Below the pieces are notes generated by a model, which worked only from the letters and a program-made list of their open reading frames with translations, was not told where the DNA came from and did not search any database. A DNA stretch of 64,000 nucleotides, from positions 20,878-84,877 of the forward strand of contig NZ_CAGKLC010000010.1 of assembly GCF_903469665.1 (NCBI RefSeq). The letters are read 5' to 3'. Each line of letters opens with the position of its first letter. Positions within the stretch are counted from its first letter, which is position 1. Both the position numbers and the translations under genes were made by a program. Positions 2,832-12,650 of the stretch are shown piece by piece. This DNA is from Flavobacterium sp. UGB4466. Lineage in GTDB: Bacteria; Bacteroidota; Bacteroidia; Flavobacteriales; Flavobacteriaceae.

Positions 2832-3033
2832 AAAATGGTTTTATAATTAGTATTGGCAAATGTTTTGCTTTTTTGATAATTTTTATGATAATATATTATC
2901 GCAAAAACCTATTATATTACCCTTTTATTACATATTTAATATTTTACATGTATTATCTTACCCTTTCAAATTCGAACAACATACGTGCTTATTTTCTTAC
3001 TTTTTGTCTTTTTTTACTTGATTTTAGACCACC

Positions 3034-3094: not shown

Positions 3095-5257
3095 TTATTT
3101 CGCTCCCGGAGGACACTTTTCTTCTATAAATTTTATAAAAGTATCGACTAAATGTTTTCGGGTTCCTTCGCCTTCATGAATGCTGTGCGTACGATTTGGG
3201 TAGATCATTAAATTAAAAACTTTGTCGTATTTGATCAGTTCATCAATCAAAACTTCTGCATTTTTATAGTGCACATTATCATCGCCGGTTCCGTGAATGT
3301 AAAGCAAATTTCCTTTTAAGTTCTTTGCGTGTGTTACGGGTGAAGCCTGAATATAGGCAGCTTCATTCTCGTCCGGCAATCCCATATAACGTTCGGTGTA
3401 AATATTATCGTAAAAATGCTGATCGGTAACTGCTGCGATGGCTACGCCGGTTTTATAGATCTCAGGATACTGAAACATTAGATTCAAAGTTACGGCTCCA
3501 CCTCCGCTCCATCCGTGTATGGCCACTCTGTTCGCATCAATAAAGTTCCATTTCAGTACTTCTTTGGCCGCCATAGCCTGATCACGGGTGTTGATGATTC
3601 CAATATTTTTGTAAATTGATTTTCTCCATTTTCTTCCTTTCAAAACCGGAGTTCCTCTATTGTCCATTGCAATTCCAATGTAGCCTTTAGGAATTAAAAA
3701 GTCAATAAATCCATTAAAATAAGGCATGTCATTCGCTACCGAAGCCATTGGCTCTCCGTAAACGTAAAAGAACACCGGGTATTTTTTTGTCGGATCAAAA
3801 TCAAGAGGTTTTGCCATGATTCCATCGATTTCAACTCCGTCGACAGTGCTTACTTTGAATTTCTCTAATGAAAAGTCACGTGTTGGTTTTACCAAAACAT
3901 CAGCCTCTTTTGGCAGTATTTTTTTATGATCGGAAAGTGAAACTAAGCGTACATTAAAATCGCGATTGATATTAGAATTGGTGTGTTTGGCATACGATCC
4001 GTCTGTCGAAAACTCATATTCATTAGTTCCTTCAAATACTTCCGGAGTTATTCTTTTGGTTTTAAGCGAATTAATATTCGTCTCATACAGATAACGCTGC
4101 GTAGCATCTTTTGGACTTGCGATATAATAAATTGATTTTGTCTTGTCATTATAAGCTTTAAAATAAGCATCGAAATTTCCGGTTGTGATCAGTTCTTTCT
4201 TTTTTCCGTCACGGCTTATTTTGTACACATGCATCCAGCCATCGGCATCTGAACTCCATAAAAAAGATTTACCGTTGTCTACAAACTGACAAGGGAAACC
4301 ATCGTACACGCCAGAGGAAATATCAAAAACATCAATCCATTCTGCTGATTTTTCCTGATACACTAAAGTTGCTTTCCCAGACTGCGTATTGCAATTGTAA
4401 ATCGAAGCCTGATTTTGATTTCGATTCAATTGTATAGCCATTACCTCATCTTTTGCCACCCATTCCATACGAACCAAATAATTATTATCCGGTTCACCCG
4501 GAATATCAAGCCAGTTGGTTTTTAAAGAAGCGATATCAATAACTCCAATTTTTACAGCAGAAGGTTTTTCTCCAGCTTTTGGATATTCTACCGGAATTAC
4601 AAATGGGTATAAAGCGTCTGTATTGTTAATCATTAAGTGAAACTTTGTCTCCGAAGCATCTACACGCCAAAAAGCTATACTTTTACCATCAGGACTCCAG
4701 CGAAATCCGTCACGTGCGGCCAGTTCTTCTTCGTAAACCCAGTCAAAAGTTCCATTGATTACCTTATCAGTTCCATCTGTCGTTAAAGCGGTAATCTTTC
4801 CTGACGCCAGATTTTCAAGGTAAATATTGTGTTTTGAAACGTAAGCTACATTTTCGTTATCCGCAGAAAATTTGGCAAACATTAAAGAAGATTCTTCTAA
4901 GCCGGCTCCCAATTTTCTTCCTTTTCCGGTCGTCAAGTCAAAAAACCAATAGTCACCTCTGGTATTGGCTCTCCACACTTTTTTTGAATTGGTATAAACG
5001 AGAACTTTGGTTTTATTCTGGTTCCAGACTAATTCTTCTACTTCTCCGTTAAAACCTGCATTTGTTAATTGCTGTCTGGTTAAAACAGTGGTATTCTGAT
5101 TGAGTTTATCCACATCATATACCAAAATATCCTTTCCGGAATTTACCCAAAACGAATGTGAATTGGGCAGCCACTTTAATTCGTTAATATCAATATCCTT
5201 TTGAGCCCAAATGCCCGAGCAGACCAAAAGAAGCAGTAAGAAGTGTTTTTTAATCAT
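3095..5257 (-). CDS. Dipeptidyl peptidase IV-type secreted serine peptidase (family S9)
   Basis: The 720-residue protein has a signal peptide (MIKKHFLLLLLV...GIWAQ), an N-terminal beta-propeller and a C-terminal alpha/beta-hydrolase domain. The DPP4 hallmark DWVYEEE lies at residues 172-178; in characterised DPP4 enzymes this glutamate motif grips the substrate amino terminus. The catalytic triad is visible: Ser584 in GWSGGG, Asp659/660 in GTGDDNVH and His691 in RTHSIHEG. The enzyme should release Xaa-Pro dipeptides from peptides in the periplasm or at the surface. It starts only 3 bp after the Xaa-Pro aminopeptidase stop codon, so it is the last gene of the hydroxyproline operon. Length and motifs are normal for Bacteroidota DPP4. 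Activity on Xaa-Hyp is inferred from its neighbours only. Confidence 0.93.
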   Translation of the reverse strand: MIKKHFLLLLLVCSGIWAQKDIDINELKWLPNSHSFWVNSGKDILVYDVDKLNQNTTVLTRQQLTNAGFNGEVEELVWNQNKTKVLVYTNSKKVWRANTRGDYWFFDLTTGKGRKLGAGLEESSLMFAKFSADNENVAYVSKHNIYLENLASGKITALTTDGTDKVINGTFDWVYEEELAARDGFRWSPDGKSIAFWRVDASETKFHLMINNTDALYPFVIPVEYPKAGEKPSAVKIGVIDIASLKTNWLDIPGEPDNNYLVRMEWVAKDEVMAIQLNRNQNQASIYNCNTQSGKATLVYQEKSAEWIDVFDISSGVYDGFPCQFVDNGKSFLWSSDADGWMHVYKISRDGKKKELITTGNFDAYFKAYNDKTKSIYYIASPKDATQRYLYETNINSLKTKRITPEVFEGTNEYEFSTDGSYAKHTNSNINRDFNVRLVSLSDHKKILPKEADVLVKPTRDFSLEKFKVSTVDGVEIDGIMAKPLDFDPTKKYPVFFYVYGEPMASVANDMPYFNGFIDFLIPKGYIGIAMDNRGTPVLKGRKWRKSIYKNIGIINTRDQAMAAKEVLKWNFIDANRVAIHGWSGGGAVTLNLMFQYPEIYKTGVAIAAVTDQHFYDNIYTERYMGLPDENEAAYIQASPVTHAKNLKGNLLYIHGTGDDNVHYKNAEVLIDELIKYDKVFNLMIYPNRTHSIHEGEGTRKHLVDTFIKFIEEKCPPGAK

Positions 5258-5260
5258 GGT

Positions 5261-6556
5261 TTATTTCGTATTTAATAGCTGTTCTATTTCTTCAATTTCA
5301 ATAGGCATATCTTCGGATAAATTAATGTTTCCGTCTTCGGTTAACAAATAATCATTTTCCAGTCGGCAGCCGATTCCCTCTTCCCGAATATAAATTCCAG
5401 GCTCGCAGGTAAGCACCATTCCTTTTTCAAAAGGTTTGGAATACAACCCCACATCATGAACATCCAGTCCTAAAAAGTGAGCCGTTCCGTGCATGAAGTA
5501 TTTTTTGTATACAGGATTTTCGGGGTCTTGCACTGCAATGTCTTCCAAAGTAATCAAACCTAATTTTACCAGTTCGGCTTCCACCAGACCTGCCATCTGT
5601 GCTTCGTACTCTTTCGATAAAACACCCGGTTTTAAAAATTTTGATCCTTCTTTCAGACAATGCAAAACCGATTGGTAAACTTCTTTCTGACGGGCTGAAA
5701 ATTTTCCGTTTACCGGAAGACAGCGCGTAGTATCGGAATTGTAATTGCCATAACAAACCCCAAAATCGACCAAAAGCATATCGCCGTCCTGACAAACCGA
5801 ATCATTGGTATTGTAATGTAAGACACAGGCATTCTTGCCCGAAGCGATAATAGGTTTGAAGGCATGACGATTTCCTCCGTTTTTAATATAATGGTACGCA
5901 AGTTCAGCCTCCAGTTCGTATTCTTTTACATTCGGCTGTACCGCTTTTAACAATGCTTTGAATCCTTCGATACTTATAGCCACGGCTTTTCGGATTAAAG
6001 CGATCTCTTCATCTGATTTTACAGGACGCAACTCTCTCGTTATTTTGGCCACACGCTCGTAGTGATGTAGCGGATATTTTTGCTTGCACCACTGAATCAT
6101 TCGATCCTGGCGGGTATTCATTTCCGAAGTTATTCTTTTAATGTGCTCGTTATGTCCCAGATAAATGGCATCGGCCTCAAAGGCAAACAGCTGCAGGACT
6201 TTTTCAAATTCATGTATCCATTTTACATTTTTAATTCCGGAAAGAGCTGTAACTTTTTCTTTGGTCAAGAAATCTCCATCCCAGATTAACGTATGTTCAC
6301 TGACTTCTTTTACAAATAAAATAGCTCTGTTTTCATCTTTAAAAGCATCGGGATAGAGCACCAGAATAGTTTCGTCCTGCTCAATTCCGGACAGATAAAA
6401 CAAATCATTATTTTGTGCAAACCCCATGACATCATCTGCATTATTGGGCATCACATCGTTTGAAGTAAGAATAGCCAAACTGTTAATCTGCATTTTTTCG
6501 ACAAACCTCTTACGGTTATTTTCGAATAAAGAAGCCGGAATTGAATCGTATCTCAT
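5261..6556 (-). CDS. Xaa-Pro aminopeptidase / aminopeptidase P (M24B)
   Basis: The 431-residue protein has an N-terminal AMP_N-type domain (about 1-140) and a C-terminal pita-bread metallopeptidase domain. All five metal ligands of the family are visible: Asp264 (LLVDFG), Asp275 (NSDTTR), His360 (HGTAHFLGLDVHD), Glu385 (CEPGIY) and Glu400 (CRLEND), with the accessory His367. There is no signal peptide, so it is cytoplasmic. The enzyme removes the residue before proline; in this operon it would act on imported Xaa-Pro or Xaa-Hyp peptides and release the imino acid for the catabolic genes upstream. Spacing is 3 bp to each neighbour. A prolidase-like preference for dipeptides cannot be excluded from sequence. 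Confidence 0.93.
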   Translation of the reverse strand: MRYDSIPASLFENNRKRFVEKMQINSLAILTSNDVMPNNADDVMGFAQNNDLFYLSGIEQDETILVLYPDAFKDENRAILFVKEVSEHTLIWDGDFLTKEKVTALSGIKNVKWIHEFEKVLQLFAFEADAIYLGHNEHIKRITSEMNTRQDRMIQWCKQKYPLHHYERVAKITRELRPVKSDEEIALIRKAVAISIEGFKALLKAVQPNVKEYELEAELAYHYIKNGGNRHAFKPIIASGKNACVLHYNTNDSVCQDGDMLLVDFGVCYGNYNSDTTRCLPVNGKFSARQKEVYQSVLHCLKEGSKFLKPGVLSKEYEAQMAGLVEAELVKLGLITLEDIAVQDPENPVYKKYFMHGTAHFLGLDVHDVGLYSKPFEKGMVLTCEPGIYIREEGIGCRLENDYLLTEDGNINLSEDMPIEIEEIEQLLNTK

Positions 6557-6559
6557 AAT

Positions 6560-7795
6560 TTATAATTGAAACATTTTAGTATCAACCGAAGTTGTTTTGC
6601 CTGAAATAATCTCGGTAATTATTTTTCCGGTTGCCGGTGCAAGGCTTAAACCCATCATCGCATGTCCGGTGGCGAAAGTCAAATTTACAACTTTTTTGGC
6701 ACGCGTAATGATTGGCATTCCCGAAGGTGTACAAGGTCTGAAACCAAACCAGGTATCCTTATTTTCAGGCATTCCCACCTGCATATCGGGATAAAACTCG
6801 TTGATACTGTTTATGATTCCCTGTAATCTGTTTTTATTGATTTTGGTATCTCCGGTATGGGTAATCTCCATAGTTCCCCCAAAACGAATATCATTGTTCA
6901 TAGGGGTTACGGCTACCTTTCCTTCGCATAGAATCGAAGGAATCGAAGGTTTGTGATCTTGGTCCTTCAGTGTAAAACTGTATCCTTTTCCCGGTAAAAT
7001 AGAAACTGAAATCCCGAGTTTTTTAGCCAGTGAAGGACTCCAGGAACCTGCCGCCAGCACAACTTCATCTGTGGCAAATATACCTTTGTCTGTTACGATC
7101 TTCGTAATTTTATGATGATCGAAAGTAAAATCCTGTACTGTGGTACCGGAGTGAATTTCTACTTTTAAGCGCTTTAATTCTTCTTTGATAAACTGCATGA
7201 ATTTTTGTGGATACAAATGCGCGTCGCCTTTATAGTGTATCCCTCCTAAAATATCGGTTTTAGTACCGTTCTCCAGTTTTGCAACTGCTGCTGCAGAAAG
7301 ATAGTCTACTTTTAAACCCAGCTTTTCGGCTTCTCGTCCTTCATGAAACATTTCATGTGCTGTTTTATCGGTTTTGTACAACATCAGAAGTCCTTTTTCT
7401 TCGTAGAAAAACGAATTATTTTCTCTGGCAAAATCCTGATACAATTCCTTACTCAACAATGACAAATCACGCAGTGCCGGCATTGCATTTGCGACGTGTT
7501 TCTCATTGGCATGTTTGTAAAACTGCAGTCCCCATTTCATCAAATTGGCATCTAATCTCGGTTTTACATAAAACGGACTCTGACTGTCGAACATCCATTT
7601 GATTCCCTGAGCAATCATACCGGGCTGTGCCAACGGAATAATATGCGAGGGAACGATCATTCCGGCATTTCCATAAGAACAACCATCATCCATAGGAGAC
7701 TGATCAAAAACAGTTACCTCAAATCCTTCTTTAGCCAGATAATAAGCGGTACACAAGCCTATTATACCTCCTCCAACTATACTTACTCTTTTCAT
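6560..7795 (-). CDS. FAD-dependent D-amino-acid oxidoreductase, probable cis-4-hydroxy-D-proline dehydrogenase
   Basis: The 411-residue DadA/DAO-fold protein begins with the dinucleotide-binding signature VSIVGGGIIGL (GxGxxG near residues 8-13) followed by the ribose-binding acidic position in VTVFDQ. The C-terminal FAD region contains WFGFRPCTPSGMPII and ATGHAMMGLSLAPATGK. In known hydroxyproline pathways an enzyme of this family (LhpB type, or HypABC-type complexes) oxidises cis-4-hydroxy-D-proline to pyrroline-4-hydroxy-2-carboxylate. Here the gene lies between the epimerase and the Xaa-Pro aminopeptidase, all minus strand, which supports that role over general D-alanine dehydrogenase. No small electron-transfer partner genes are seen, so it probably works as a single subunit. 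Confidence 0.82.
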   Translation of the reverse strand: MKRVSIVGGGIIGLCTAYYLAKEGFEVTVFDQSPMDDGCSYGNAGMIVPSHIIPLAQPGMIAQGIKWMFDSQSPFYVKPRLDANLMKWGLQFYKHANEKHVANAMPALRDLSLLSKELYQDFARENNSFFYEEKGLLMLYKTDKTAHEMFHEGREAEKLGLKVDYLSAAAVAKLENGTKTDILGGIHYKGDAHLYPQKFMQFIKEELKRLKVEIHSGTTVQDFTFDHHKITKIVTDKGIFATDEVVLAAGSWSPSLAKKLGISVSILPGKGYSFTLKDQDHKPSIPSILCEGKVAVTPMNNDIRFGGTMEITHTGDTKINKNRLQGIINSINEFYPDMQVGMPENKDTWFGFRPCTPSGMPIITRAKKVVNLTFATGHAMMGLSLAPATGKIITEIISGKTTSVDTKMFQL

Positions 7796-7867
7796 TTGTA
7801 CGAAATTAAAAAATTCATTGAAGAAGAATCTTATCCTCCTTCAATGAATCTAAATTTTTAATATTTT

Positions 7868-8878
7868 TTAAATTACCTGAAAACCATGAGCATACGGATC
7901 ATTTGCTTCATCGATGATGATGGTGTTGTAACCGTATACTTTTGCCCAGCCCTGAATGCTTGGTACAATCGCAGGAATGTCTCCAATTGAAGTTTCCTCC
8001 ACCACTTTTCCAATAAACTTACTGCCAATATAACTTTCGTGAATAAAATCTTCTCCTACTTTAAGTTTCCCTTTGGCATGCAGCTGTGCAATTCTCGCTG
8101 ATGTTCCGGTACCGCAAGGAGAACGATCGATGGCTTTGTCTCCGTAGAAAACAGCATTTCGACCTGACGATGTCGGATCTAAAGGCTCTCCCGTCCAAAG
8201 CATATGGCTGACATCACGAATGGTATCATTCTCCGGATGGATAAAATAGTCCGGATATTTGGCATTAATTCTCTTACGGACTTCCTGACTCAACTGGATA
8301 ATTTTACCGGCGGAGAAATTCTGAATTCCGGAGAAATTTTCTTGTGGATCCACAATCGCATAATAGTTTCCCCCGTATGCCACATCAAAAGTAATTTCGC
8401 CCAGTTCAGGACAATCAATAGTTAATCCTTCTGCTGCCAAATACGATTTTACATTAGTCAGACGTACCCAGTCGACTTTGTTTCCGGTTTGCTGGTACTC
8501 GATATTCACGAGGCCGGCAGGAGCTTCCATTCTTATTTTTCCCGGTACTTTTGGAGTAATCAAACCTTCTTCAATGGCAATGGTAATGGTACCAATGGTT
8601 CCGTGACCGCACATTGGCAGACAACCGGAAGTTTCGATAAATAAAATCCCAAAATCATTGGCAGGATCGCTTGGCGGATATAAAATACTTCCGCTCATCA
8701 TATCATGTCCGCGAGGTTCAAACATTAGTCCTTTTCGGATCCAGTCAAATTCTTTTAAAAAATGCTGGCGTTTTTCGCTCATGTTAGCGCCCGTCAAATT
8801 CGGCCCACCGCCTGCCACCACTCTTACAGGATTCCCGCAAGTGTGTGCATCTACACAAAAAAAAGTCTTCTTTACCAT
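7868..8878 (-). CDS. 4-hydroxyproline 2-epimerase (proline racemase superfamily)
   Basis: The 336-residue protein carries the family N-terminus CVDAHTCGNPVRVV and both catalytic cysteines, Cys90 in MCGHGTIG and Cys255 in DRSPCGTGTSAR. Two cysteines indicate an epimerase or racemase; the related trans-3-hydroxyproline dehydratases have threonine at the second site. The expected reaction converts trans-4-hydroxy-L-proline to cis-4-hydroxy-D-proline in the cytoplasm. The context settles hydroxyproline rather than proline as substrate: oxidoreductase, 2,5-dioxovalerate dehydrogenase and pyrroline deaminase genes surround it. Its ATG directly abuts the stop codon of the dehydrogenase gene, so translation is likely coupled. 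Confidence 0.9.
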   Translation of the reverse strand: MVKKTFFCVDAHTCGNPVRVVAGGGPNLTGANMSEKRQHFLKEFDWIRKGLMFEPRGHDMMSGSILYPPSDPANDFGILFIETSGCLPMCGHGTIGTITIAIEEGLITPKVPGKIRMEAPAGLVNIEYQQTGNKVDWVRLTNVKSYLAAEGLTIDCPELGEITFDVAYGGNYYAIVDPQENFSGIQNFSAGKIIQLSQEVRKRINAKYPDYFIHPENDTIRDVSHMLWTGEPLDPTSSGRNAVFYGDKAIDRSPCGTGTSARIAQLHAKGKLKVGEDFIHESYIGSKFIGKVVEETSIGDIPAIVPSIQGWAKVYGYNTIIIDEANDPYAHGFQVI

Positions 8879-10465
8879 TTATGTTATCTGGGATTTTGTT
8901 TGAATATTATTTAAAGTTCTTAAAATCTGTAATGGATTCTCATTTTGCAATGCTGCAGGTAATAATTCATTGGGCCAATTCTGATAACTAAACGGTCGAA
9001 CCCAGCGATAAACCGCATGAATTCCAACGGCAGTAAATCTCGAATCGGAAGAAGCCGGATAAGGCCCTCCGTGAATCATTGAAGGACAAACTTCAACTCC
9101 CGTAGGAACACCGTTAAAAATCAATCGTCCCACTTTGCTCTGCATCGCTGCAACCAATTCGTCCTGATTTTTCAATTCCTCAGGCTCTCCAATAATGGTA
9201 CCTGTTAGCTGCCCGTCCAATTGATTGATAATCGTTAGCAATTGTTGTTCATCATCACATTGCACCAGTACCGAAACAGGTCCAAAAACCTCATGACTTA
9301 AGGTTTTATTCTCTAAAAAAGTTTTGCCGTCTACGGTTAAAACTTTCTGTACTCCGTAATTTGGTGCCGCGTCACCTTTGTATTCTGCAATTTTTGCAAC
9401 ACCTTTCTGTGCCAGCATTGTTGCTGATCCTTCTTCAAAACCATTCTTCATTGAAGGATGCAACATACAAAATGGTTCTATTTTTTCAATGGCCTGAGTT
9501 AATTCTTCTGAGAATTTATCCAACTCAGCTCCCTTAATTCCAAACAGTAATCCCGGATTGGTACAAAACTGACCTGCTCCAAGCGTGATAGATCCCGCAT
9601 AAGCCGTAGCCCATTTTTGACTGTTTACCTTTACGGCATTTGGCAAAAGCACCACAGGATTTACACTCCCCATCTCGGCAAAAACCGGAATTGGCTCTGG
9701 TCGTTGTGCTGCCAGATCAAACAAGGCTCTTCCGGCACGAATACTTCCGGTAAAACCAACTGCTTTTACTAACGGATGTTTCACCAATGCGGTTCCAAGC
9801 GTTGTACCCCCACCAATAAGATTGGAGAAAACACCCTCCGGCATATTTGTTTTTTGCGCTGCTTTTATAATAGCCGAAGCAACCATTTCGCCTGTTCCTA
9901 CATGCATCGAATGACTTTTTACAATCACAGGACAGCCTGCCGCTAATGCTGAAGCGGTATCTCCACCAGCTGTTGAAAATGCAAACGGAAAATTACTGGA
10001 CCCAAAAACCACCACCGGCCCAAGAGGTACCAACATTTTACGCAAATCTTCTTTTGGCGCAGGAACCCTGTCTGTTATTGCCGTATCAATTGCAGCCTGA
10101 ACCCAGCTCCCTTCAATGAGCATTTGGGCAAACGCGCGTAGCTGACCAACCATTCTTCCGCGCTCCCCCTCTGCTCTGCCCATTGGAAAGCCGGATTCAC
10201 TGCAATACTGAACTAACAAATCATTTCCTAAAGCTACGATTTCGTCAGCTATAGCATTTAAAAAACCAGCTCTTTCTAAACCGGAATATTTTTTATACGT
10301 TCCAAATGCCTGATGAGCCAAAGCAACTGCTTCTTCAATTTCTTCATGAGTTGCTTCTGTAAAAACCCAGGGATTTTCGACATTCTGCTGTGGGTTAAAT
10401 GTTTTAAACGTTTTATTACCCCCAGCTTTTAGTGTACTTCCCACGTAATTTTTTCCTGTAATCAT
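8879..10465 (-). CDS. 2,5-dioxovalerate (alpha-ketoglutarate semialdehyde) dehydrogenase
   Basis: The 528-residue aldehyde dehydrogenase has the general-base Glu264 (FAEMGSVNP), the nucleophile Cys301 (GAGQFCTNPG) and the coenzyme-binding stretch GSSNFPFAFSTAGGD. The N-terminus (MITGKNYVGS) and the length match the NADP-linked alpha-ketoglutarate semialdehyde dehydrogenase group, which is longer than betaine-aldehyde-type enzymes. It performs the last step of hydroxyproline breakdown, giving alpha-ketoglutarate. The same reaction serves sugar-acid pathways, but no sugar-acid dehydratases are present, while the epimerase follows with zero spacing. Upstream lies a 246-bp gap with a nested palindrome that separates it from the deaminase gene. 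Confidence 0.88.
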   Translation of the reverse strand: MITGKNYVGSTLKAGGNKTFKTFNPQQNVENPWVFTEATHEEIEEAVALAHQAFGTYKKYSGLERAGFLNAIADEIVALGNDLLVQYCSESGFPMGRAEGERGRMVGQLRAFAQMLIEGSWVQAAIDTAITDRVPAPKEDLRKMLVPLGPVVVFGSSNFPFAFSTAGGDTASALAAGCPVIVKSHSMHVGTGEMVASAIIKAAQKTNMPEGVFSNLIGGGTTLGTALVKHPLVKAVGFTGSIRAGRALFDLAAQRPEPIPVFAEMGSVNPVVLLPNAVKVNSQKWATAYAGSITLGAGQFCTNPGLLFGIKGAELDKFSEELTQAIEKIEPFCMLHPSMKNGFEEGSATMLAQKGVAKIAEYKGDAAPNYGVQKVLTVDGKTFLENKTLSHEVFGPVSVLVQCDDEQQLLTIINQLDGQLTGTIIGEPEELKNQDELVAAMQSKVGRLIFNGVPTGVEVCPSMIHGGPYPASSDSRFTAVGIHAVYRWVRPFSYQNWPNELLPAALQNENPLQILRTLNNIQTKSQIT

Positions 10466-10504
10466 ATTTCTTTTTTGTTGTTTGAATAAATACTTTACAA
10501 TTCT

Positions 10505-10668
10505 TAGCGTCTGTTTAAAATTTATTATTGAGATTTATTATCAAAGGATTTTCGAGCGAAAAGAGGCAAATTTTAATAGAATAGCAGCGTTATTGTAGTA
10601 AAATTTAACGACGTTACAGCCGAAAATCATCATAAGAAAACCAACAAATAAAATTTAAAGAGGCTCTT
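10505..10668. repeat. Imperfect palindrome with three nested arms inside the hydroxyproline operon
   Basis: Three inverted arm pairs share one centre near 10587: AAATTTTA (10568-10575) with TAAAATTT (10599-10606); GATTTTCG (10547-10554) with CGAAAATC (10621-10628); and an imperfect TTTAAAATTTATT (10514-10526) with AATAAAATTTAAA (10647-10659). There is no T-tract after the outer stem, so it does not look like a plain terminator. No open frame was found in the gap. It may be a REP-like or miniature mobile element, or an mRNA-processing structure between the deaminase and dehydrogenase genes. Confidence 0.6.
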
Positions 10669-10711
10669 AAAGAAGAAATTTGTAAAACCAATTGTATCAG
10701 CCTATATACTG

Positions 10712-11626
10712 TTACAAGTTTTTATAATCAGGCAAAGTTGGTCTTGATGCTAAGGATTTGGCAATAATGTCTAAAACTTTTTCTCTTTCAGCTCCCTGAA
10801 GCGGTAATCTTGGTGCGCGAACATATTCTGTCCCGATACCTGTTGCTACTTCTGCAAGCTTAATATTTTGTACTAAAAATGAGTTAATATCTAATTCTAA
10901 TAAAGGAAGAAACCATCTGTATATCTTCAAGGCCTCATCAATTCTACCGGCTTTGGCTAATTTGTATATTGCAACTGTTTCTCTAGGAAAAGCACATACC
11001 AGACCTGAAACCCATCCGTCAGACCCCATCAATAAACTCTCTAAAGCCAGGGTATCTACTCCTGATAAAATCTTTAATCGGTCCCCGAAACGGTTAATCA
11101 TTCTGGTTACATTCGAAATATCTCTTGTTGATTCTTTTACGGCCTGAATGTTATCAAATTTTAACAGATCTTCAAACATATCCAGTGTAACTTCAATTTT
11201 ATAATCTACCGGATTATTGTATATCATTATTGGAAGTGATGTATTTTTTGCGACTTCAGAAAAATAAGTTACCGTTTCGAAATCAGAAGCTTTGTAACGC
11301 ATTGGAGGCAACATCATTAATCCTTTTGCTCCATCTTGTTCGGCTTTATTGGCTGCTAAAATTGCGGCACGTGTAGTTTGCTCTGCAATATTCATAATTA
11401 CCGGTACCTGATTGTTTACCAGGTTTACAGTATTTTTCACCAATTCTCTTCTTTCCTCTTCCAAAAGAGTACTGGCTTCTCCTAATGTTCCGCCCAGAAT
11501 TATTCCATCAACACCTGCCTCTAATTGTGCTTGTAAGTTAACTTCAAACATTCTGAAGTCTAATTTATCATCTGCAGTAAATTTGGTTGTTACTGCCGGC
11601 ATAACGCCTTTCCATTGAATACTCAT
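10712..11626 (-). CDS. 1-pyrroline-4-hydroxy-2-carboxylate deaminase (DHDPS/NAL family)
   Basis: The protein is about 304 residues from the ATG at 11626. It has the dihydrodipicolinate-synthase fold signatures: GGTLGEASTL, Tyr136 in MIYNNPVDY and the Schiff-base Lys164 in QAVKESTRD. In hydroxyproline pathways (LhpC type) a member of this family deaminates and dehydrates pyrroline-4-hydroxy-2-carboxylate to alpha-ketoglutarate semialdehyde, the substrate of the adjacent dehydrogenase. I chose 11626 over the in-frame start at 11650 because a TAnnTTTG -7 box lies at 11648-11655, which would overlap the longer start, and because MSIQWKGVMPA matches family N-termini. It is the first gene of the minus-strand cluster, divergent from the AraC regulator. 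Confidence 0.88.
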   Translation of the reverse strand: MSIQWKGVMPAVTTKFTADDKLDFRMFEVNLQAQLEAGVDGIILGGTLGEASTLLEEERRELVKNTVNLVNNQVPVIMNIAEQTTRAAILAANKAEQDGAKGLMMLPPMRYKASDFETVTYFSEVAKNTSLPIMIYNNPVDYKIEVTLDMFEDLLKFDNIQAVKESTRDISNVTRMINRFGDRLKILSGVDTLALESLLMGSDGWVSGLVCAFPRETVAIYKLAKAGRIDEALKIYRWFLPLLELDINSFLVQNIKLAEVATGIGTEYVRAPRLPLQGAEREKVLDIIAKSLASRPTLPDYKNL

Positions 11627-11647
11627 AATATCGATTTTAATTAAAAC

Positions 11648-11674
11648 CAAAATTATTTATATTGAACAAAGCAA
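11648..11674 (-). promoter_or_regulatory. Candidate promoter of the hydroxyproline operon
   Basis: On the minus strand the -7 box TAATTTTG (11655-11648) matches the Bacteroidota consensus TAnnTTTG and is preceded by TTG (11674-11672) at 16 bp. The predicted start of transcription is about 15 nt before the ATG at 11626. The AT-rich stretch 11680-11760 shared with the divergent regulator is where an AraC operator would be expected. Confidence 0.45.
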
Positions 11675-11749
11675 GAGGCTGAAAAATTACCTCAAAACAA
11701 TACTATATTACCCTATATAAACTGATTACACAAAAAACCAATTAATATA

Positions 11750-11782
11750 TTGCTATTTTTTTGACAAAATAAAATATATTTG
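11750..11782 (+). promoter_or_regulatory. Candidate promoter of the AraC-type regulator
   Basis: TTG (11750-11752), a 22-bp spacer and TATATTTG (11775-11782) fit the Bacteroidota TTG / TAnnTTTG promoter pattern. The ATG is 22 bp downstream. Confidence 0.5.
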
Positions 11783-11804
11783 AATGAACTAACCTTGACC
11801 AACC

Positions 11805-12650
11805 ATGAAAGTTTTTCCATTTAAAATCCCTAAATCGGGAGAAGATCCTCTTATATATCAAGAGGATAGAGAGATCGTTTTTTACGACAAACTCCATCAA
11901 CACGAAGAAATACAAATTAGTTTTATCGAAAAAGGACAGGGCGCCATTTTTGCAGGAGATACCATCTCGCATTACCGCGAAGGCGATATCTTAATGATTG
12001 GAAGCAATTTACCTCATGTTTTCAGAAGTGAAGTATATGACAATGAATCTTCCATTATGCGTACCTTATTCTTTACTACAGGCTCGTTTGGAAAAGATTT
12101 CTTCTCCCTAACCACTTTCAAAAACATCCAGCCTTTTTTAGAAAACAGCAAAAATGGATTTATCACCCACAATCCCCCTAAAAAAATCGTCAAATCTTTC
12201 AAAAAACTAAAAAAATCAGACAACTACGAACGCTTCATTTTGTTTCTGGAAATCATAAAGTGGCTTTCCAACAGTGAGAGAGAACAGCTCTCCAACCATT
12301 TGTACGATAAAAAAATTACGGATAATGAAGGCAAACGAATGCAGACGGTATTCGAACACGTAATGACCAACTACCAAAAAAACATTAACCTGGATGAGAT
12401 TGCTTCGATTGCTAATATGACTAAAAATGCGTTCTGCCGCTATTTTAAAGTCCGGACCAACAAGTCCTTTTTCCAATTTTTAATAGAAGTGAGAATCGAA
12501 CATGCTTCCAAACTGTTGGCCAACAACAGTGAGCTTTCGGTCCTCGAAATTGCCGAATTATGCGGCTTTAACAACATCTCCAATTTCAACAGAAAGTTTA
12601 AAGAACTGAAGCAGACTTCTCCGTTGCAATACCGAAAACTGAATCTATAA
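11805..12650 (+). CDS. AraC-family transcriptional regulator, probable hydroxyproline regulator
   Basis: The 281-residue protein has an N-terminal cupin-like ligand domain (HQHEEIQISFIEKGQGAIFAGD) and a C-terminal double helix-turn-helix AraC domain (about 185-280) including IASIANMTKNAFCRYFK and ELSVLEIAELCGFNNISNFNRKFKE. It is transcribed divergently from the hydroxyproline operon with a 178-bp shared intergenic region, the usual layout for a local activator. The inducer is likely hydroxyproline or a pathway intermediate, but the sequence does not show which. No other target is evident nearby. Confidence 0.9.
   Translation: MKVFPFKIPKSGEDPLIYQEDREIVFYDKLHQHEEIQISFIEKGQGAIFAGDTISHYREGDILMIGSNLPHVFRSEVYDNESSIMRTLFFTTGSFGKDFFSLTTFKNIQPFLENSKNGFITHNPPKKIVKSFKKLKKSDNYERFILFLEIIKWLSNSEREQLSNHLYDKKITDNEGKRMQTVFEHVMTNYQKNINLDEIASIANMTKNAFCRYFKVRTNKSFFQFLIEVRIEHASKLLANNSELSVLEIAELCGFNNISNFNRKFKELKQTSPLQYRKLNL

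Follow-up and report, generated by a model that had tools for sequence, protein, structure and literature searches.

The window considered here is the whole 64,000-nucleotide stretch analysed from Flavobacterium sp. UGB4466 (genome G000, contig C10, positions 20878–84877). Near its left end lies a run of minus-strand genes, with a divergent gene for an AraC-family regulator, which we describe below as a probable utilization locus for hydroxyproline (Hyp) peptides. From the regulator towards the left edge of the window, the genes and predicted control elements are as follows:

11805–12650, plus strand: divergent AraC-family regulator (PF12833, PF02311)

11687–11712, minus strand: predicted operator, a 21-bp direct repeat, exact, 60 bp before the deaminase ATG

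11648–11655, minus strand: TAATTTTG, putative −7 box fitting TAnnTTTG

10712–11626, minus strand: DHDPS-family deaminase (PF00701, 194.8 bits), from its ATG start; a listed TTG start lies 24 bases further upstream

8879–10465, minus strand: aldehyde dehydrogenase (ALDH; PF00171), predicted 2,5-dioxovalerate (α-ketoglutaric semialdehyde) dehydrogenase

7868–8878, minus strand: 4-hydroxyproline 2-epimerase by family model (PRK13971), with Cys90 and Cys255

6560–7795, minus strand: DadA-like FAD oxidoreductase (PF01266, 224.4 bits), predicted D-hydroxyproline dehydrogenase/oxidase

5261–6556, minus strand: Xaa-Pro aminopeptidase (AMPP; M24 with AMP_N, PF00557 and PF05195), operon-type paralogue

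3095–5257, minus strand: DPP4-type S9 peptidase (PF00930, PF00326)

2896–2921, minus strand: predicted operator, one mismatch, 64 bp before SusC

1–2831, running past the left window edge, minus strand: SusC/RagA-family TonB-dependent receptor of 1068 amino acids (TIGR04056, 587.9 vs 368.25 bits)

All coordinates and domains agree with the gene placement given in an earlier note on this DNA, and so do the 3-bp spacings that it reported, found between the oxidoreductase and aminopeptidase genes and between the aminopeptidase and DPP4 genes; the corresponding two gaps are 1–6 bp in three named Flavobacterium relatives sharing the gene order. The neighbouring SusC-like receptor is also present, as a member of a SusC/SusD pair: SusC is followed outside the window, after a 12-bp gap, by SusD (SusD-like_2, PF12771, 419.6 bits), and beyond SusD lie the genes for an M43 metalloprotease with a Por secretion tail, an opposite-strand M24 dipeptidase-like protein and an S37 peptidase, whose relatives we take to have prolyl specificity. 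No permease gene was recognised among the genes read at the window locus. The putative −7 box was labelled with the consensus TAnnTTTG, which we take to be that of Bacteroidetes, and a TA-TTTTG-like stretch is kept in six aligned loci. The gap between the deaminase and ALDH genes (10466–10711) measures 246 bp inside an otherwise tight run; it is 16 bp in Flavobacterium sp. JAS and 271 bp in F. branchiicola.

By domain and order, the run brings together the four enzyme types that would convert trans-4-hydroxy-L-proline into α-ketoglutarate, a complete set as the earlier note had claimed, with the activities predicted. The epimerase reaches 589.5 bits with the NCBIfam 4-hydroxyproline epimerase model (PRK13971, curated cut-off 376) and stays below the cut-offs of the other five models of the racemase family that were listed; with the proline-racemase model it scores 313 bits, vs a cut-off of 556. 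Both catalytic cysteines are in place: Cys90 is present in all 12 aligned sequences (alignment A1), and Cys255 in all but a paralogue encoded on contig C55, which has Thr. The ALDH has 3v4c (E 1e-131) and 1eyy (6e-121) as best solved relatives, the next one (8e-23) being nearly 100 orders of magnitude weaker in E-value, and this kinship, together with the gene context, leads us to predict a semialdehyde dehydrogenase. The oxidoreductase scores 271.6 bits with the NCBIfam D-amino acid dehydrogenase model, under its cut-off of 383; neither it nor the ALDH reaches a reaction-specific equivalog cut-off among the 25 best families listed for each, and the deaminase has no NCBIfam equivalog above its cut-off. 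Since no specific model reaches its cut-off, the predicted functions of the oxidoreductase and deaminase are named from domain and context. Note that the window oxidoreductase is 75–88% identical to its counterparts in eight of nine named Flavobacterium loci and 45% identical to that of L135, and about 40–50% identical to those of most other loci, whereas the epimerase holds 56–93%; this divergence would reflect either faster change or replacement.

Two genes stand side by side on C55 (L005:1990–4024). The paralogue, a second member of the racemase family in which Thr takes the place of the second cysteine, scores best with trans-3-hydroxyproline dehydratase (368.2 bits, under the cut-off of 540), and its neighbour passes the pyrroline-2-carboxylate reductase cut-off (371.1 vs 322 bits). 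In the relative L129, such a reductase gene adjoins the Hyp operon and an S37 gene.

An epimerase match (E ≤ 1e-60) was found in 83 of 149 Flavobacteriaceae genomes, taken at about one per genus. Stretches of 20 kb (some shorter) around all 83 epimerases constitute our family set, in which gene order was read for 82 loci, the window's included; L077, whose epimerase is hidden under an overlapping frame, was left out of gene-order and module counts and kept in the repeat scans. A second, named set consists of the best 80 of 591 loci; it shares some genomes with the family set, and the counts are not independent. In this survey across the family, a check that the earlier note had proposed, the core order recurs in most of the 82 loci with varying neighbours (deaminase family in 78, oxidoreductase in 78, ALDH in 77, AraC in 56), and the arrangement is therefore more than a product of chance. 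By a loose test, which accepts a peptidase-type gene at any place in the stretch provided that it shares the strand of the epimerase, 51 of the 82 loci carry one, or 25 if DUF885, whose function is unproven, is not counted; the corresponding figures for the named set are 37 and 25 out of 80. The window's own type, AMPP–DPP4–SusC–SusD, is present in Flavobacterium sp. JAS, F. branchiicola and F. muglaense and, without DPP4, in sp. ALJ2. In L093, L095, L103, L148, L156, L157, L162 and L171, the deaminase is replaced by an approximately 30% identical DHDPS-family protein with MPAVFTWLK near its start; L157 carries both versions.

A direct repeat points to common control. The pattern GRTAA-N16-GRTAA, i.e. 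a 21-bp direct repeat, occurs in 60 of 109 divergent regulator/deaminase gaps from both locus sets, compared with a mean of 0.38 and a maximum of 3 in 300 rounds of simple base shuffling, and other spacings between 8 and 29 never exceed five occurrences in these gaps. In aligned gaps of close relatives, the two halves of the repeat change together, from GGTAAT to GATAAT. With up to one mismatch, an extended pattern gave 113 matches in the 3.19 Mb of the 163 loci, vs one match for the reversed pattern and 0–2 for four permuted ones. Of these matches, 82 precede a deaminase-family gene, which is partly so by construction as the pattern was drawn from such sites, and 24 precede other locus genes (SusC 11, S9 10, GH127 1, DUF885 1, ALDH 1); one lies before another gene and six before none. 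In the window's own genome, the same threshold yields six matches, three of which fall within 19.3 kb at this locus, 60 bp (deaminase), 64 bp (SusC) and 61 bp (S37) from the start codons. The distance to SusC is kept in relatives: 64 bp in L126 and L130 (one mismatch) and 63–65 bp in L127 and L195 (three mismatches). Finally, ten of 12 further genomes, picked from the epimerase carriers, have a match at the Hyp locus, and all nine exact matches in these 12 genomes lie in this locus or at most 21 kb from it. The repeat is a predicted binding site of the AraC regulator, and its presence before several locus genes likely marks a regulon that is switched as a unit.

The operon aminopeptidase, which by eye has no signal peptide (signal peptides were judged in this way throughout, without a predictor), and the DPP4 are extra copies, since the genome encodes one further close copy of each (47 and 34% identity, respectively). 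The operon-type AMPP subfamily (at least 66% identity, one member via a partial match) is represented in 13 of the 149 genomes, a short fragment in L099 being below threshold and excluded. Ten of the 13 have the epimerase. In nine of these, the two genes lie at most 5 kb apart, one of the aminopeptidase genes having an internal stop; in the tenth, the locus is split over contigs, and the contig with the epimerase runs out in an aminopeptidase fragment. Among the matches listed, no aminopeptidase copy of 44–51% identity lies within 5 kb of an epimerase, the nearest being at 12.5 kb. The operon-type aminopeptidase is a paralogue tied to the Hyp locus. As for the three subfamily genomes without an epimerase match, one retains AMPP–M24b by genes that flank the Hyp locus of relatives, the second retains trans-3-Hyp genes, AMPP and ALDH, and the third has no Hyp gene near. 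Loci from epimerase-match-free genomes (L235 in G014, L237 in G146 and L252 in G040) keep AMPP–M24b, trans-3-Hyp genes–AMPP–ALDH, or oxidoreductase–DUF885–ALDH.

The DPP4 has a signal-peptide-like N-terminus, propeller and S9 domains, and the motifs DWVYEEE and GWSGGG, the latter around the predicted catalytic Ser584. DWVYEEE contains the Glu-Glu anchor of DPP4-type enzymes. The same role is given to this anchor in PmDAP IV in excerpts of its description (PMC5807507). The residue that follows the catalytic serine sets the window enzyme apart: it is Gly (Gly585), as in all 23 DPP4 homologues of at least 45% identity (21 GWSGGG, 2 GHSGGG), vs Tyr in six and Phe in two of the eight DPP4s read from the 34–38% type, and vs Tyr in the solved 5olj and btDPP4. 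By alignment, the position is occupied by Asn in 2ecf, which we take to be the Stenotrophomonas maltophilia DAP IV. The epimerase is found in 22 of the 23 genomes of this Gly clade vs 61 of the 126 others (Fisher p 1.4e-5, kinship ignored); with the E threshold unchanged, the figure for the other type of DPP4 is 23 of 49 (p 0.16, kinship ignored). According to the same excerpts, the equivalent Asn of PmDAP IV lines the S1 pocket (PMC5807507), and the title of a paper cited there reports activity of the S. maltophilia enzyme on a 4-Hyp substrate; from these two points we predict that Gly585 gives a wider S1 pocket that accepts Hyp. The window enzyme thus resembles the S. maltophilia DAP IV in being an S9 DPP4 without Tyr after the catalytic serine, and differs from it in having Gly there and in that its Hyp activity is predicted.

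A further candidate peptidase is the DUF885 protein, encoded in 40 of the 82 family loci (e.g. L054:10499–12229 and L041:7745–9508, plus 38 others), in 37 cases directly before the epimerase. A recurrent gene of about 577 codons between ALDH and epimerase in relatives, considered as a possible transporter, turned out to be this DUF885 gene and not a permease. The locus-type protein (at least 55% identity) occurs in 53 genomes. Of these, 44 have the epimerase (Fisher p 4e-7), and in 40 the two genes stand side by side. Its conserved motif HEAVPGHHLQ looks like a metal site, plain HExxH being absent. At E ≤ 0.001, the matches of a structure model (mean pLDDT 75.9) were all to other DUF885-type structures, themselves of unknown function. 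A metallopeptidase fold is thus unsupported, and the peptidase idea rests on motif and context.

RagAB and BT_2263 are SusCD peptide importers of Bacteroidota. For the SusD discussed here, the best structure match is 5j5u (3e-43), with BT_2263 among the weaker ones (1e-19); such matches do not tell the cargo, and peptide is our predicted cargo for the pair. Behind SusD, the M43 protease (L003:14684–18532) carries GEVED and Por_Secre_tail domains, and the relative L130 has a three-mismatch copy of the repeat 66 bp ahead of its M43 gene.

We consider it probable that the window holds a Hyp-peptide utilization locus in which the AraC regulator, predicted to bind the repeat, would switch on SusC/D, predicted proline-specific peptidases and Hyp enzymes. 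The gene content and order, their conservation, the distribution of the repeat, the change after the catalytic serine and its co-occurrence across genomes are direct observations. The dedicated Pro/Hyp peptide system advanced in the earlier note is thereby supported through the locus-bound AMPP paralogue, the co-occurrence of the DPP4 clade and the predicted operator shared by SusC/D and S37, its substrate and induction being predicted. Several results weigh against this reading. Besides the built-in share of the deaminase-side matches, the own genome contains a single exact site, the SusC and S37 sites having one mismatch each, and one of the three off-locus matches lies inside a coding region (the second lies some 160 bp upstream of a gene of unknown function whose product begins like a lipoprotein, and the third is close to a contig end, with no gene seen after it). 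With up to two mismatches, matches in the own genome equal the control (26 vs 27), and this threshold was dropped. Two of the 12 further genomes, G077 and G082, have no match at the Hyp locus, and 26 of the 40 matches with up to one mismatch in the 12 genomes are off-locus, 14 being at the locus, vs 21 matches for the reversed control. The co-occurrence of the AMPP subfamily with the epimerase is by itself not significant (p 0.15), and just three of the 23 Gly-clade DPP4 genes lie near the epimerase, so that a strictly operon-bound clade is ruled out and the link is mostly one of co-occurrence with kinship ignored. No scored peptidase-type gene was found on the strand of the epimerase in 31 of the 82 loci, or in 57 if DUF885 is not counted. 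The names of the solved structures closest to the SusD do not point to peptide binding. M9 collagenase (PF01752) has no match in the own genome and exceeds its cut-off in one of the 149 genomes; a reading of the locus as one for native collagen attacked by M9 was therefore set aside for the own genome.

Could the locus serve plant Hyp-rich glycoproteins, i.e. extensins and arabinogalactan proteins, rather than animal collagen peptides? We regard this as unlikely for the window genome, although a sister locus type, found in 11 of the 80 named loci, adds a PF07944 (GH127-family) protein to the core seen here. Nine of these 11 loci also have a SusC- or SusD-like match, and several carry the repeat ahead of S9, SusC or GH127 genes. 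This type occurs in Flavobacterium cutihirudinis, F. bizetiae and Root420, in Flagellimonas/Allomuricauda and in Sinomicrobium. According to excerpts of a study of the family, characterized GH127-family members release β-arabinose from Hyp-linked chains or oligosaccharides cut from them, and PF07944, which covers GH127, may include GH146 by described domain make-up (PMC10850190); GH127 and GH146 are not separated in our counts. However, no PF07944 match was found in the own genome, and the plant reading was set aside for it. Moreover, the operon-type AMPP goes with trans-3-Hyp-type genes (five of six named loci, p 6e-5; three of four family loci, p 0.007; AMPP with a trans-3-Hyp gene forms a type of its own in 5/80 named loci), and not with GH127 (0/11 named and 0/2 family loci, a sample too small for proof, with GH127 and GH146 unsplit). 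The alternatives of collagen or plant glycoprotein given in the earlier note are thus narrowed for the own genome, which has the trans-3-Hyp-dehydratase-like gene and the reductase. Since it shows neither a GH127-family gene nor an M9 collagenase, gelatin- or collagen-type peptides freed by other proteases are its likeliest food. The PF07944 loci (L128, L131, L132, L136, L137, L141, L146, L201 and L089, the latter with a LamG domain in the PF07944 protein) often add an S9 peptidase, DUF885-like proteins, SusC/D or an amino-acid permease. In L073, L078 and L082, SusC/D stands behind the Hyp core, and a Gly-clade DPP4, a GH2-like or a GH97 gene stands in front, in varied combinations.

Alternatively, the core would serve free hydroxyproline, with the peptidases and SusC/D as general protein-scavenging neighbours by chance. 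The loci without a scored peptidase-type gene, the location of most Gly-clade DPP4 genes elsewhere in the genome, and an amino-acid permease near or in the run in 11 of the 80 named loci speak for this view, which we nevertheless judge quite improbable: the operon aminopeptidase is a separate locus-bound paralogue, the short gene spacing is kept in relatives, a common repeat precedes SusC, S9 and S37 genes, and three genomes without an epimerase match retain other locus genes together. Paralogue adjacency, kept spacing and shared repeat led us to reject chance co-location as the leading explanation. That the epimerase-led pathway acts on another substrate, such as proline or another D-amino acid, is highly improbable, for although the oxidoreductase and deaminase pass no equivalog cut-off and, among solved structures, the epimerase comes closest to a proline racemase, it passes the 4-hydroxyproline epimerase cut-off only, well short of that for proline racemase, and a semialdehyde dehydrogenase and a deaminase would be roleless in proline racemization.

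In our Hyp-peptide model, all activities, the inducer, the passage through the inner membrane and the identity of the repeat as AraC site are inferred. The divergent AraC would bind the 21-bp direct repeat before three genes and switch on the locus. Secreted proteases would generate peptides, a route suggested by family knowledge, and SusC/D would carry them into the periplasm. There, the presumably exported DPP4 would remove N-terminal Xaa-Pro and, via the predicted wider S1 pocket with Gly585, Xaa-Hyp dipeptides. Longer pieces that contain Pro would be shortened by the S37 enzyme, and the cytosolic aminopeptidase P would finish the peptides. Free trans-4-hydroxy-L-proline would then pass through the epimerase, the oxidoreductase, the deaminase and the semialdehyde dehydrogenase to α-ketoglutarate. 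More tentatively, and with less confidence than the model itself, one may envisage, for flavobacteria and their relatives, interchangeable supply modules on one Hyp core under a Hyp-responsive AraC, with a Gly-type DPP4 opened for Xaa-Hyp and DUF885 as a Hyp-linked metallopeptidase. The modules would be a peptide-type SusC/D with AMPP, DPP4 and S37, a glycoprotein-type SusC/D with a GH127-family protein, and sets of DUF885 and S9.

Parts of this scheme have known counterparts. Like polysaccharide utilization loci and SusCD importers of Bacteroidota, the window locus combines SusC/D, degradative enzymes and a likely substrate-specific regulator, but its enzymes are peptidases and an amino-acid pathway, and BT_2263 is among the weaker SusD matches. 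The earlier note had contrasted the locus with Hyp clusters of Proteobacteria, a contrast that proved too sharp: as described in excerpts of PMC7883544, a collagen cluster of Colwellia combines peptidases and a TonB receptor with Hyp enzymes, among them the epimerase. That cluster also encodes an M9 collagenase, an MFS transporter and, as regulator, PutR, whereas the window genome, in which no M9 was found, has a SusC/D pair, DPP4 and an AraC with a conserved repeat. In Bacilli, genes of the trans-3-Hyp dehydratase type have peptidase families and TRAP/ABC transporters in their vicinity, as noted in a study of gene neighbourhoods in the proline racemase superfamily, to which the epimerase belongs; the word 'Bacteroidetes' is absent from its main text (PMC4113996). 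In a collagenase–SusCD–Dcp2 group of F. psychrophilum, a member of the same bacterial family, the SusCD is proposed to import collagen-derived oligopeptides; the link there is co-expression, and 'hydroxyproline' is absent from the main text (PMC9723704). Judging from titles and the start of abstracts in open-licence literature, which is weak evidence of absence, we found no published description of a SusC/D-linked Hyp locus, and by the same measure none of the publications naming both 'hydroxyproline' and 'SusD' concerns such a locus. The biochemistry is built from known parts; within the literature searched, the combination, the repeat-defined regulon and the pocket change are new.

Collagen and the glycoproteins of plant walls both contain hydroxyproline as a major amino acid. 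The recovery of hydroxyproline by environmental Bacteroidota is little described in the searchable literature. The cargo of SusC/D pairs is usually hard to settle from sequence, and one repeat that ties together importer, peptidases and Hyp pathway would offer a way to predict the peptide or glycoprotein that a given pair serves. The pocket residue of DPP4 should decide whether Hyp is accepted, and DUF885 gains a candidate role. Altogether, bacteria with this locus probably recycle hydroxyproline from proteins such as collagen as a coordinated diet.

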